From: a virus | IMG/VR virus record: IMGVR_UViG_3300017971_000743 | Location: 1-24,455 of that record | Strand: one strand, 5' to 3' | DNA: 24,455 nt | Shown here: positions 1,045 through 19,102 of the stretch, in pieces | Layout: the number at the start of each line of letters is the position of its first letter | How positions within the stretch are numbered: position 1 is the first letter of the stretch | The notes under the pieces: generated by a model | Databases searched by the model: none | What the model was told of the DNA's origin: nothing | What the model saw: the letters and a program-made list of their open reading frames with translations, nothing else | Made by a program: the position numbers and the translations under genes

Positions 1045-1640
1045 AAAGGATCGCAGCTTAGTTTGGTTTCCGAAACACTTCTAAATGTGACGCCTCGCCG
1101 CGTGTAATATTCTATAAGGCTGTTTACATAAGGGACGTAAGCCCATATTTCGCCATGGGGACAAGTCTCTGATTTGCTTTCATTCCCGTCATAATACTTA
1201 GCACCGCTCATATCAATGCCACAAAGCGAGATTCTTTTTGCTCCAAATCTGGCTCCAAGTTCCATCGTTATAGCAGCTACCGTTCCGTCTGGCTTAAACA
1301 TTTCTGGAACTGGTAAATATTTGTGTGGCGTGAATCGTGGAACAAAACGGAACGTATAGTTACATTTTGCCTTAGATTTACGGTGCAAGCCTTGTGAAAA
1401 GAACCTGATTATTTGTGGTCGAGATAAGCCTTTTTTGAACCAAGGAGTTTTTATTGCCCACCAATCTGCGACGCACCAAGCATCGATCCTCACAGGAATT
1501 GTTATTGCATAGTTAACAGCGATCACAAAACTATCTGCTGGAATTTCGTCCCAATGCGCCTTACCTCTAGGTCCGGGACCCAGAATTGTTATGTGTTCCG
1601 GACACCGGAAATTAGATTTAAATAAATCGCGTGGCATCAT
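1041..1640 (-). CDS. DUF115/GT42-like transferase, paralog B
   Basis: A 199-residue protein with LGPGPRGK at 20-27, NYAITIPV at 43-50, CGIDMSG at 140-146 followed by a Y-Y-DG segment, and SETKL near the end. These align column by column with the other two paralogs at 445-1044 and 5329-6183. Family knowledge: the fold is Rossmann-like and related to GT42 sialyltransferases and DUF115 proteins, some of which modify surface structures. Substrate is not visible. The start lies 23 bases inside the end of the upstream methyltransferase gene and has no strong ribosome site, so translation is probably coupled to that gene. No signal peptide or membrane segment is seen, so it should act in the host cytoplasm. 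Confidence 0.65.
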   Translation of the reverse strand: MMPRDLFKSNFRCPEHITILGPGPRGKAHWDEIPADSFVIAVNYAITIPVRIDAWCVADWWAIKTPWFKKGLSRPQIIRFFSQGLHRKSKAKCNYTFRFVPRFTPHKYLPVPEMFKPDGTVAAITMELGARFGAKRISLCGIDMSGAKYYDGNESKSETCPHGEIWAYVPYVNSLIEYYTRRGVTFRSVSETKLSCDPL

Positions 1641-2235
1641 TTAATATTTCGATAAGGCGGTTTAACGTAACGACGCGGCCCACCTTCAACCTATTGGGGA
1701 AATAATACGTCCAGTTATCGATATGCATTCCCCGGTCTGTTTTTGGACGTTTTAAAACAACAGTGCAGCCATAATCTTCGTCTATTGTCCAGTAGTTTAA
1801 ATCGGACTGTTTGCATAGCCAACTGAATATTCGCCAAGCATCTCCGCACCAAAGAGGATTACCGGATTTAGATATTAGGGTCGGTTTTTCTGTTGCATAC
1901 CTCGCGTCGGGTGGCATCGTGTCATGAAGGATAATAGCCCCATCGTCGTTGAGAAATTTCAATGAATTTTCCAAATCCTGCTGGACCTGTTCGTATTTGT
2001 GGAGACCGTCGATAAAAATCACGTCGAAATATTCTTGATTCCAACTAAAAAATTGATCGCTGGTCGTTTCGTGGATATCCTTTTCACCGATCATTTCATT
2101 GGTGATAATCGGATCAATGCCGACTTTATAGTCACATTTTATTCGCCGCCAAGTATCGCCGTATAAAACACCAATCTCTAAATATGATGTTGCTCCGATT
2201 GTAGAAATTACACGATTAATTATGTCCCATCTCAT
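1618..2235 (-). CDS. Class I SAM-dependent methyltransferase (Methyltransf_24-like)
   Basis: A 205-residue protein. YLEIGVLYGDT (18-28) is the SAM-binding motif I, the acid after strand 2 is D41 (GIDP), and FIDGLHKYEQV (74-84) with LHD (103-105) is the D-x-x-H and metal-site pattern of Methyltransf_24, rhamnosyl O-methyltransferase and cephalosporin-hydroxylase-like enzymes, many of which methylate sugars. The neighbours are sugar transferases, so O-methylation of a glycan is the natural inference. An AAGGAG and a GGAG stand upstream of the ATG. It is the first gene after repeat array 1 and may be read from a promoter in that array. Confidence 0.75.
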   Translation of the reverse strand: MRWDIINRVISTIGATSYLEIGVLYGDTWRRIKCDYKVGIDPIITNEMIGEKDIHETTSDQFFSWNQEYFDVIFIDGLHKYEQVQQDLENSLKFLNDDGAIILHDTMPPDARYATEKPTLISKSGNPLWCGDAWRIFSWLCKQSDLNYWTIDEDYGCTVVLKRPKTDRGMHIDNWTYYFPNRLKVGRVVTLNRLIEILNDATRFI

Positions 2236-2258
2236 TTTTAGCTCCAGTCTCCTTAAAC

Positions 2259-2264
2259 ATTATA
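2259..2264 (-). promoter_or_regulatory. Candidate -10 box in the gene-proximal copy of repeat array 1
   Basis: The minus strand reads TGAATATAATG, with a perfect TATAAT at 2264-2259, 23 bases before the start codon of the methyltransferase gene. It overlaps the outer arm of a palindromic repeat copy (ATATTCA-N6-TGAATAT, 2262-2281). No good -35 hexamer sits 17 bases upstream (GATAAC), which would fit an activator-dependent promoter. The equivalent place in array 2 holds TATAAC. Confidence 0.4.
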
Positions 2265-2400
2265 TTCACGTCCCTGAATATGTTATCCGCGTCCTTTTAA
2301 TATTGCATCCGCGTCCCTGAATATGTTGCTCGATAAACTATTGTTCACTGAATATGAAAAACACTCCCTTTGGGCCATATATTCATATCACTGAATATGT
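2261..2400. repeat. Repeat array 1: about four copies of a TATTCA-N-CTGAATATGT element
   Basis: Plus-strand copies end in CTGAATATG(T) at 2274-2283, 2317-2326, 2348-2356 and 2391-2400. Copies 1 and 4 are palindromes with perfect 7-bp arms, ATATTCA-N6-TGAATAT. The distance from TGA to TGA is 43, 31 and 43 bases, and weaker copies sit near the middle of the 43-base gaps (for example around 2295-2304), giving a step of 21-22. The same element fills 18889-19102. It lies in the gap between the nucleotidylyltransferase and the methyltransferase, and no gene is seen in 2236-2408. Confidence 0.8.
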
Positions 2401-4626: not shown

Positions 4627-5336
4627 CGCTTCCGCTTCTTGCCCTTGAACTTCCCCGGCAATATTCTTTCGTTCCAGCCAAAATCCACGTTCTCTCGCTT
4701 ATCCCTATCGCCCTTGGTATTTGTATTCATGTGATAAAAATATCTCCTGCAACCCTTATGATTAACGACGCCCATTCTTGTTATGATTCTTTTCAATAAA
4801 GCATCCACCGGACCACCGCCATTTCTGGTCAATCCTCTGGGGCATTCTTTTGTTAATTTATCAAACGCCACGGCTAGTTCTTTTGTCTGTCCGACAAGTG
4901 TGCCAATACCTGAGCGATATTTTTTAAACTTAAACATAGGGTATCTATGTTTGCCAGTGACTAAATTCTTAACGATTATATTGTTTAGGTTCCAAGCAAA
5001 CGGAGCACCATTAATAATTGGAGCAAGGGCATGTTCCAAATATCTCGGCTCGAAACGATCATCTTCATCCATAATCGCGAAATAAGGCGATTTGCAGCGG
5101 CGTATGAATAGTTTCATTTTGAAAAACCATATTGCTGGCCAATTACCCTTCACTCTATGTTCGACAATCTTGATAAAACTATCATGTATCAATTCGGGCG
5201 GAAACGGTGGCTGGTGTAATAGATGCAATACCTTTGGGTTATAGGTTTGGTCAAGCGCGTTACAAATCGCATGCATCTTGAGCCATGGATTAAATCCTAG
5301 TGTTGCTATTCCCACTTCCTTGTTTTTTTTACTCAT
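4623..5336 (-). CDS. GT-A (GT2-like) glycosyltransferase
   Basis: A 237-residue protein. It starts with a strand typical of GT2 (VGIATLGFN), has YFAIMDEDDRFEP (85-97) whose DEDD is the metal- and nucleotide-binding DxD region, and a later N-GGGPVDALLKR segment that may be the acceptor/catalytic region. The last 30 residues are strongly basic. Family role: inverting sugar transfer from a nucleotide-sugar. No membrane segment is seen. The gene overlaps the upstream paralog A by 8 bases and the downstream GT4 gene by 4, so the three are translated together. Confidence 0.7.
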   Translation of the reverse strand: MSKKNKEVGIATLGFNPWLKMHAICNALDQTYNPKVLHLLHQPPFPPELIHDSFIKIVEHRVKGNWPAIWFFKMKLFIRRCKSPYFAIMDEDDRFEPRYLEHALAPIINGAPFAWNLNNIIVKNLVTGKHRYPMFKFKKYRSGIGTLVGQTKELAVAFDKLTKECPRGLTRNGGGPVDALLKRIITRMGVVNHKGCRRYFYHMNTNTKGDRDKRENVDFGWNERILPGKFKGKKRKR

Positions 5337-6183
5337 GCTTAACGTCCAATTTTGTCGCTGATAAAGTGGTAAAGCTTAGGCCCAATTTTTCTAGATGTCT
5401 CATTAGAGAATTAAAAACTGGAACCGTGCTCCATTGATTATCTTTTCTTTTCAATTGCTTATGTCTCGAACCGTCGTGATAAGTATTACCGTACATGTCT
5501 ATTCCACATAAAGCGATTTTTTTACTCCCGGTGAGATAAGCGAGTTGTATCGCTGCACCAGCAACGGTACAACCGGGCCTTAGATAATTCGTTCCGGGAG
5601 CAACGTTATTCTCACGCATCATTTCTGGTTTTCTAAGTTCAAACGTACATCTTACCCACGGGAAATAACGCGCCACTCTTAATTTTTCCATCACTGGTAT
5701 TGGATATCCGAGACCGATGCTGTTTTGTGTCAGGTCATGACCTGTTAAGTAATAATTATTATAATGCCACTCCATCAGGTCACGGAAATATTTCTGGCCC
5801 TGTAGCGTGGGGTCCATGGCCATCCATAGAGTAGTATTGACCGGGCAAGTAATAGCACCGTTAAGGGATATGACAAAATCATCGTCATCAATCTTGTCAT
5901 ATCCCTGTTTTCCTCGCGGACCGCTGCCAAGAATAACTACTCTTTCTGGTAGTTTTAAGCCATGTTCGAAAACGTCTTGAAACTTGGGTTTGGGCAACAA
6001 AATAATTTTGCCCTGTTCGAGAAGAGGAATCGCTGTTTTATCACGAAGCTGTACAGTCCTACCCGCTTTCCAGCGACGTCCCTTATATTCGATGGGAATA
6101 ATTACCCGATAATTTCCGATACGTGGCCTTTTCTTTAACGATTGCTGGAATTCAATCGGATTATCCAGAACGGGCTTTGTCAT
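5329..6183 (-). CDS. DUF115/GT42-like transferase, paralog A, with an extra N-terminal domain
   Basis: A 284-residue protein. Residues 80-284 are the third paralog of the family also at 1041-1640 and 445-1044: LGSGPRGK (85-92), NGAITCPV (108-115), CTVAGAA (205-211), CGIDMYG (226-232), then TYHDGS and SATKL. Residues 20-65 form an added small beta-rich domain (YRVIIPIEYKGRRWKAG, then a Leu-rich end), a type of short module seen in other phage proteins; its role is unknown. The GIDMY segment is the closest of the three to the GIDFY of Campylobacter CstII. By inference it transfers a sugar. It is the first gene of the sugar cassette, directly after the small genes behind the tail spike. Confidence 0.65.
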   Translation of the reverse strand: MTKPVLDNPIEFQQSLKKRPRIGNYRVIIPIEYKGRRWKAGRTVQLRDKTAIPLLEQGKIILLPKPKFQDVFEHGLKLPERVVILGSGPRGKQGYDKIDDDDFVISLNGAITCPVNTTLWMAMDPTLQGQKYFRDLMEWHYNNYYLTGHDLTQNSIGLGYPIPVMEKLRVARYFPWVRCTFELRKPEMMRENNVAPGTNYLRPGCTVAGAAIQLAYLTGSKKIALCGIDMYGNTYHDGSRHKQLKRKDNQWSTVPVFNSLMRHLEKLGLSFTTLSATKLDVKHE

Positions 6184-17544: not shown

Positions 17545-17581
17545 ATTCGCTAAAAAACAACTCCATGAGATGCGCTGTGAC

Positions 17582-17600
17582 GCCCATTCTGACCATGGGC
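17582..17600. other. Small inverted repeat in the 101-base gap
   Basis: GCCCAT (17582-17587) and ATGGGC (17595-17600) form a 6-bp stem with a 7-base loop in the gap between the terminator-like and gpG-like genes. The gap (17545-17645) holds no convincing gene; a 21-codon frame there is too short to support. No U tract follows, so it is not a usual terminator. Confidence 0.3.
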
Positions 17601-17645
17601 AAGGGTAAGGGTTGGGAAATTACAATAAATATTTATATTATTTTA

Positions 17646-18140
17646 TCAATAGCCAGTTAACGCACTGACGATTAATTCGTTGGTCAAAAATCTGGTTAAT
17701 TCATCAACATCGCTGTTTCTGATGTAAAGAAATTCACGGACAGGAATATTATTCTCAGGATCACCGAATTGATGTTTCGGCCCATATTGAACATTTGTTC
17801 CACAATACACCGCATTGCCCTCGACCTTAAAGGTAATGCTGTTATATAACCGTCCTGTGTCTCGTAATTTTTCTACGTCTTCACCGGGCGCGGCGTTCCG
17901 TTCGCTCAAGGTCCATGGGGAAAGAGGCGGCCATTTTGAGCCGTCTAGGTTTTCTTCTCGCTCAAAATTCGACCTGACCATTGTCTGCATTTTAAGTCCG
18001 ATTAGTCTCAGGACGTGATTGTTCTGTCGATTCGCATTTATCAGACCTTGAATCGCGCGGTCGAGATGTTGCATTCCGATTATCTGAACCCCGGCTCGGC
18101 CAAATCCCGAAATGTTTCGAAACACAGTGCCGTCTACCAT
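17646..18140 (-). CDS. Phage virion morphogenesis protein (Mu gpG-like)
   Basis: A 164-residue protein from ATG 18140, chosen because GGAGGG stands 7 bases before it; an in-frame ATG 15 bases upstream has no such site. DGSKWPPLSP with later RDTGRLYNSITFKV and VQYGPKHQFG is the signature of the PF05069 (gpG, tail completion) family: DG-x-W-x-PL, then L-x-x-TGxL-x-x-S, then YxxxHQFG. Function in Mu: virion morphogenesis and tail completion at the head-tail joint. The start overlaps the end of the DUF1320 gene. Confidence 0.8.
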   Translation of the reverse strand: MVDGTVFRNISGFGRAGVQIIGMQHLDRAIQGLINANRQNNHVLRLIGLKMQTMVRSNFEREENLDGSKWPPLSPWTLSERNAAPGEDVEKLRDTGRLYNSITFKVEGNAVYCGTNVQYGPKHQFGDPENNIPVREFLYIRNSDVDELTRFLTNELIVSALTGY

Positions 18141-18868
18141 GCCAAATCCCTCCATTCGCCATAATTCTCATCATCGGGATCGCTGGTATAGTCTTCGAAA
18201 TTATCGTCTATCATTACTCGCTCAACGTCTGTATCGGTGAGGGTAGGAATTGTTTTTACAACCGTTCCTCCAACGGTCGAGAATCTATATTCTCCCTTCT
18301 TGATATCGGACAATGCTCGTTGATAATCTGCTTCTCTGTCACGATGCGGATTATTCTCGGCCTGAGTCCGTCTTGCCCAAACAAGCCACGAACAATGATC
18401 CGACACTAATTGATTCACTTCTTTTGGAACATTGGGGACGTATTTACTCGCATCACCCGTAAGGTCATATTCGTAATAAAAAACATTTTCAAGTGTAATT
18501 TCTGTATCGCTATTAATTTCTGCGACAATGAGTCGGATATCTTCTTGGTCATCCGGTCTAATCTCATCACCCACGGCGAGTTCTGATATAGCCGCACCAC
18601 CAGTAATATTTACTGTCGTGTCGCCGCGAATAAATATGAAACTACCCGTAAGGCTTGTGATTGTAGGATCGATTGGAACTGTGGTGTAACGACGCAAAAT
18701 CGCCTCAAGGTCGGTCGATGCCTTAGAGATGTACCGCTCTAAGTTTCTTACCACGTCGTAATCGTCAATTGAAGAGCCTGCACGGTCAATGACCAAATTG
18801 ACCAGATGGCGTTCTGGGTCTAACATGTTTAAATCTGTGATCGTGCAGTATTTTGAAATTCCGGTCAA
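18134..18868 (-). CDS. DUF1320 (Mu gp36-like) head-tail connector with inserted beta module
   Basis: A 244-residue protein that starts at TTG 18868; an in-frame stop lies just before it and there is no in-frame ATG near by. The N-terminal 60 residues (ASTDLEAILRRYTTVPID) and the part from 144 (VPKEVNQLVSDHCSWLVWARR) are the two halves of a DUF1320 connector, which normally lie next to each other. Between them, about 72-140, is a beta module (TGSFIFIRGDTTVNITGGAA, AVGDEIR, then a TEITLE strand) similar to the two modules in the hub protein at 8969-11491. Connectors of this family form a ring under the portal. It is the first gene after repeat array 2. Confidence 0.7.
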   Translation of the reverse strand: MTGISKYCTITDLNMLDPERHLVNLVIDRAGSSIDDYDVVRNLERYISKASTDLEAILRRYTTVPIDPTITSLTGSFIFIRGDTTVNITGGAAISELAVGDEIRPDDQEDIRLIVAEINSDTEITLENVFYYEYDLTGDASKYVPNVPKEVNQLVSDHCSWLVWARRTQAENNPHRDREADYQRALSDIKKGEYRFSTVGGTVVKTIPTLTDTDVERVMIDDNFEDYTSDPDDENYGEWRDLAW

Positions 18869-18888
18869 TTTTCATTCTTCTCTCAAGC

Positions 18889-18894
18889 GTTATA
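18889..18894 (-). promoter_or_regulatory. Candidate -10 box in the gene-proximal copy of repeat array 2
   Basis: The minus strand reads TGAATATAACG with TATAAC at 18894-18889, 20 bases before the TTG start. It has the same place relative to the nearest repeat copy as the TATAAT in array 1. No clear -35 hexamer is seen. Confidence 0.35.
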
Positions 18895-19102
18895 TTCATT
18901 TCACAGAATATGTGCCGAGTCTTCACTAAACGTTACATCCATAGCACTGAATATGTTGTCGGCTCTTTTCCAACAATACATCCGCGTCTCTGAATATGTC
19001 TATCGATACATCAGATGCTCTGAATATGTTATTGCTCCGTTTAGGCGTTTAATTCACATCACTGAATATGTTCGTCGTTAAACTATATTCACAAAATATG
19101 TT
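18889..19102. repeat. Repeat array 2: six copies of the TATTCA-N-CTGAATATGT element
   Basis: Copies on the plus strand have their TGA (or equivalent) at 18905 (AGAATATGTG), 18948, 18991, 19021, 19063 and 19093 (short, AAAATATGTT). The steps are 43, 43, 30, 42 and 30 bases, with weaker copies near 18927, 18968 and 19042, so most steps are close to 21 or 31. Many left arms are ACATCC or TATTCA. The array occupies the gap between the 51-residue gene and the DUF1320 gene and is the second of two in the window. Confidence 0.8.

Follow-up and report, generated by a model that had tools for sequence, protein, structure and literature searches.

Two related arrays of a directional 10-nt box are candidate transcription control regions in an uncultured phage

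Two arrays of one directional 10-nt box, named Y1 and Y2, were identified in long intergenic gaps of a phage genome fragment. Judged from sequence features, they are best explained as promoter or activator arrays controlling virion-gene operons, a reading that we hold with slightly better than even confidence. The analysed window, of 24,455 bases, comprised an entire IMG/VR virus record. The arrays exist, they are diverged duplicates of one another, and the box within them is constrained; we infer that a protein binds the box, that transcription starts at the arrays and what kind of regulator acts there. Six boxes precede the connector, neck and tail genes, and four precede the methyltransferase operon.

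All of the 30 ORFs taken as genes were located on the - strand. Read from the right end, they encode a Mu-F-like minor head protein, a protease, a scaffold and the major capsid protein, followed by connector, neck and tail proteins and the tape measure, and the last block contains methyltransferase, nucleotidyltransferase and MptE-like genes. Only three gaps among these genes were longer than 40 nt, and the two longest hold Y1 and Y2. The phage is unclassified, uncultured and without a close relative. The AT-rich noncoding left end (positions 1-445) contained a GCCCCG...CGGGGC hairpin just past the last - strand gene, possibly an operon terminator. Three similar proteins encoded at 445-1640 and 5329-6183 carried the motifs SGPNGK, GPGPRGK and GSGPRGK; two of them gave weak Pfam MptE-like matches, and they adjoin the methyl- and nucleotidyltransferase genes, perhaps forming a surface-sugar modification block. 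The arrays and their neighbouring genes were as follows:

1618..2235, - strand: methyltransferase gene (Methyltransf_24), first gene downstream of Y2, preceded by AAGGAG
2255..2400, - strand: array Y2, four units, boxes at 2274-2283, 2317-2326, 2348-2357 and 2391-2400 (steps 43, 31, 43)
18134..18868, - strand: gene for a connector protein resembling Mu Gp36 (weak match, below the Pfam cut-off), first gene downstream of Y1
18885..19101, - strand: array Y1, six units, in a 232-nt intergenic gap (18869-19100) between the 52-aa gene and the connector gene
18904..18913, - strand: box u1, ACATATTCTG, closest to the downstream gene and about 35 nt ahead of its TTG start codon
18947..18956, - strand: box u2, ACATATTCAG
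18990..18999, - strand: box u3, ACATATTCAG
19020..19029, - strand: box u4, ACATATTCAG
19062..19071, - strand: box u5, ACATATTCAG
19092..19101, - strand: box u6, ACATATTTTG, a weak copy whose upstream end meets the 52-aa gene at its stop codon
19101-19259: 52-aa gene upstream of Y1

Re-reading of the Y1 gap recovered the six copies of the preliminary description, with steps of 43, 43, 30, 42 and 30 and all in the same orientation. Their location "between the head and tail modules" was about right, with Y1 following the capsid-related genes and preceding those for the Mu Gp36-like connector and the neck. The 10-mer CTGAATATGT was present with at most one mismatch in five of the six copies (exactly in four), and the sixth, at 19092-19101, had two mismatches. 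On the - strand, the left half ACATATTCA was nearly invariant and the right half, TGRATRTAAY, was degenerate.

Array Y2 had been overlooked in that description, which had proposed searching the rest of the genome for the consensus with the same spacing; Tandem Repeats Finder pointed to this second array, at 2255-2400. Exact copies of CTGAATATGT occurred seven times in the window, four in Y1, three in Y2 and none elsewhere; by chance, about 0.07 would be expected given the base composition, counting both strands, and 0.03 per strand under a first-order Markov model. The two arrays are 16.6 kb apart in direct orientation, both pointing with transcription, and in both of them the box nearest to the start codon is 35-38 nt away from it. 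Y1 and Y2 were colinear diverged duplicates, with an alignment score of 123 versus 37 for the best of 200 shuffles. Units u5, u4, u3 and u2 of Y1 aligned in order with units v4, v3, v2 and v1 of Y2, and registers one unit off scored 43 and 57 versus 122.

In this alignment, the - strand box ACATATTCAG was identical at 39/40 positions versus 47/71 for the linkers (p = 8e-5), while the right half of the supposed palindrome was identical at 27/40, a rate like that of the linkers. Constraint thus falls on a box directed along transcription and not on a symmetric operator. The "imperfect palindrome" of the preliminary description was borne out in part only: its left half was nearly invariant, and its degenerate right half was conserved between the arrays no better than the linkers. 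Across all ten units, the right half had a likeness of 0.56 versus 0.28 for random array stretches; it could represent a secondary, less strict contact or a vestige of the ancestral repeat unit. The paired diverged arrays amount to a natural mutagenesis experiment, in which the functional core is already narrowed to about 10 nt.

The same comparison bears on the idea that the arrays are a neutral remnant of local duplications without function. Duplication is frequent in the gaps of this phage (Y1/Y2, the X blocks and the 65-nt element described below), but boxes kept so far above the linkers between diverged copies are unlike neutral drift, and we consider this explanation scarcely credible. 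A role of the repeats as hairpins in the transcript, for antitermination, processing or translation control, is also quite improbable. The - strand did fold better than shuffles (z -2.6 and -2.1; the + strand of Y1 did not, z 0.2), and the changes at two positions of the right half retained G-U pairs. However, pairing was no better than in column shuffles (213/500 as good), there was no excess of compensatory changes, RNAalifold predicted no pair, and the right half was not conserved between the duplicates. A search of Rfam gave no family match, and no tRNA was found.

Transcription control is favoured by the position before operons, by the constant polarity, by a box that is selectively kept and by the promoter-like units of a third array, X. 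A promoter or activator reading is supported by Y2, which stands before another operon with the same polarity and with its box selectively conserved; among the roles listed in the preliminary description, activator sites of a phage promoter are the best candidate. The box, ACATATTCAGNGA on the coding strand, would be bound by a phage-encoded DNA-binding protein, either a transcription activator or a phage sigma-like or RNA-polymerase specificity factor. The gene-proximal box would be part of a promoter, with the TRTAAY stretch about 9 nt behind it, and the upstream boxes, 3 or 4 turns apart, might load more activator molecules or serve as extra start sites. Production of the regulator would then switch on the late operons strongly and in concert. 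No regulator gene was identified in the record, a 24,455-base fragment.

A TRTAAY stretch lies about 9 nt past the box and reads TATAAT in v1, which was the best of the Y boxes (ATAACA-16-TATAAT, 10/12 consensus bases, ranking about 72nd among some 26,000 positions on the - strand). A good -35 was absent from most Y units, and good sigma70-type hexamers spaced 16-18 apart were found only in v1, the other units being weak. Sigma70-like matches inside Y1 were unremarkable, overall promoter-like counts were close to those of shuffles, and the -10-like stretch of the Y units was not specially conserved (27/40 kept between the duplicates). Each box could instead be a complete single-element promoter, a -10-like site comparable to the T4 late TATAAATA, that is read by a sigma factor or RNA polymerase specific to the phage; the array would then be a series of start sites. 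Conservation is confined to the box, which is also directional, AT-rich and repeated, and between its nearest copy and the gene there is space for a leader of about 30 nt with a ribosome site, all of which would suit such a promoter. However, six starts within 190 nt would be unusual and no phage sigma factor or polymerase was seen in the record, and we regard this alternative as unlikely, though it ranks first among those weighed against activator arrays.

The steps, 30-31 and 42-43, come close to 3 and 4 helical turns. At 10.5 bp, the mean vector was 0.86 for Y1 and 0.94 for Y2, and the evidence for phasing (p = 0.003 with random steps as the null, 0.066 when the null is restricted to two step classes) is limited because the two arrays have common ancestry; the helical phasing proposed earlier is thus suggestive only. 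The weak copies claimed at 21-22 within the long steps were at most faint, as self-similarity at lag 21-22 was not significant in Y1 and reached z of about 1.9 in Y2. Direct repeats with phasing of about 10.5 bp, in two direct-orientation arrays 16.6 kb apart, would also be compatible with a site for replication or partition, made of iterons or centromere-like, or with a direct-repeat recombination site. No replication or partition gene is nearby, however; the surrounding genes are of capsid, connector, tail and sugar-modification types. The iteron and partition roles that had been suggested also fit poorly with a duplicate that precedes another operon and with an orientation that follows transcription, and we consider this reading very unlikely. 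A CRISPR array was rejected, in agreement with the preliminary description, since the units are degenerate with 1-2 or 13-14 nt between them, whereas CRISPR repeats are nearly identical and their unique spacers constant in length. The two ends of transposon-type elements face each other; transposon ends were discarded as an explanation, since the two arrays share one orientation. Taken as a whole, the earlier interpretation was right about a one-way array of elements that look like protein sites and about the exclusion of CRISPR, its promoter or activator role is the best candidate, and support was lacking for a symmetric palindrome and for the iteron or partition roles.

A nearly identical viral contig, L024 (99.99% identical over 9,901 bases), runs 1.6 kb beyond the right end of the window and contains array X, made up of a different element, in the gap between the TerL and portal genes. 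The TerL fragment on this contig was recognised by inspecting its sequence and from its position rather than from a profile match; the portal gene was a Portal_Mu match. Part of this gap resembles the third long gap of the window (17545-17645). The two features were as follows:

L024:10750-11210: array X, about seven units of a different element, in the TerL-portal gap, TTGGCGCG...ATGCGGATAAT
17549..17613, - strand: 65-nt noncoding element in the third long gap of the window, 83% identical to L024:11214-11278

In five units of X, TTGGCG and RRTAAT-like hexamers were exactly 17 apart, and the distance from unit to unit was mostly about 50 bp. Four units ranked within the top 30 of about 26,000 - strand sigma70-like sites (TTGGCG-N17-GATAAT twice, and those with AATAAT and TGTAAT), and the unit with GGTAAT was weaker, at rank about 124. 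The X units have the -35/-10 hexamers spaced 16-18 that characterise a sigma70-type promoter. Blocks of X were duplicated 250 bp apart, with the -35/-10-like positions kept at 38/42 versus 67/98 for the linkers (p = 0.005). The letters of X thus suggest tandem sigma70-like promoters of the form TTGGCG-N17-RRTAAT, and this different unit in the TerL-portal gap suggests a second expression class. In viral contigs, the X unit matched only unrelated coding sequences. The copies of the 65-nt element lie just after TerL on the contig and just after the neck gene in the window, and the search of viral contigs gave no copy outside L024. This phage apparently duplicates its putative intergenic control regions repeatedly.

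We tentatively propose, as a possibility well short of even, a form of late-gene control in which an array with several copies of a single directional 10-nt box stands ahead of operons, different arrays mark different expression classes, and a putative phage transcription factor needs several phased copies. If this is true, late genes would be coordinated via arrays of one box in an uncultured phage without a close relative, and ACATATTCAG in phased copies would be a sequence handle for the regulator and for other phages with the same switch.

Repressor or stoperator-like sites, at which a phage repressor on directional boxes would block or stop late-gene transcription, are an improbable alternative to such activation. 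The stoperators of cluster A mycobacteriophages are likewise short, asymmetric and oriented along transcription. However, these known sites are scattered singly over the genome and differ in sequence, whereas all copies of the Y box cluster in two pre-operon gaps; no repressor gene was seen in the record.

Two known systems resemble the candidate activator arrays in part. In T4 middle promoters, a MotA box, (a/t)(a/t)(a/t)TGCTTtA, lies 12 +/- 1 bp from a strong -10 and acts by sigma appropriation (PMC2988021). The Y box is similarly directional, phage-specific and about 10 nt long, takes the place of a -35 and precedes a -10-like stretch, but the MotA box is a single copy with an excellent -10 (PMC2988021), whereas the phage described here has arrays of 4-6 with a different sequence. 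The Y box was not classed as a MotA box, as it reads ACATATTCAG about 9 nt before a degenerate TRTAAY. Promoters of the T4 middle type also need MotA and AsiA homologues, and regulatory genes of this phage would lie beyond the fragment. The SAS and ESAS of cluster K mycobacteriophages, which have been contrasted with stoperators, comprise a single site by the start codon with a GGGATAGGAGCCC core and a 17-bp inverted repeat (PMC3203893). They are also short, phage-specific, one-orientation elements before genes, and ESAS are imperfect inverted repeats with the left half closer to the consensus than the right, as in the Y boxes (PMC3203893). In contrast, the Y boxes form tandem arrays of another sequence, and the GGGATAGGAGCCC core was not found in the Y1 and Y2 gaps as read.

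Searches for relatives indicated that the array system is so far an orphan. The exact paired box, a form of search that a drifted box would escape, found no array relative in 2.9 million viral contigs (IMG/VR) or about 85,000 genomes (GTDB). Box matches outside the L024/L042 contig were coding or unrelated noncoding repeats with low unit scores (L014, L019/L039, L041, L052, L079 and others). The capsid, tape measure, portal, connector and neck proteins retrieved only the near-identical contig and two distant tape-measure matches without the box. Phage GenBank records gave no match by protein or DNA, and no direct precedent for tandem-promoter arrays was found in the open-access literature. In one unrelated phage gap (L014:3611-3954), AACATATTCAG occurred twice with a 40-bp step before a gene and with the same polarity, a similar layout that is probably a coincidence.
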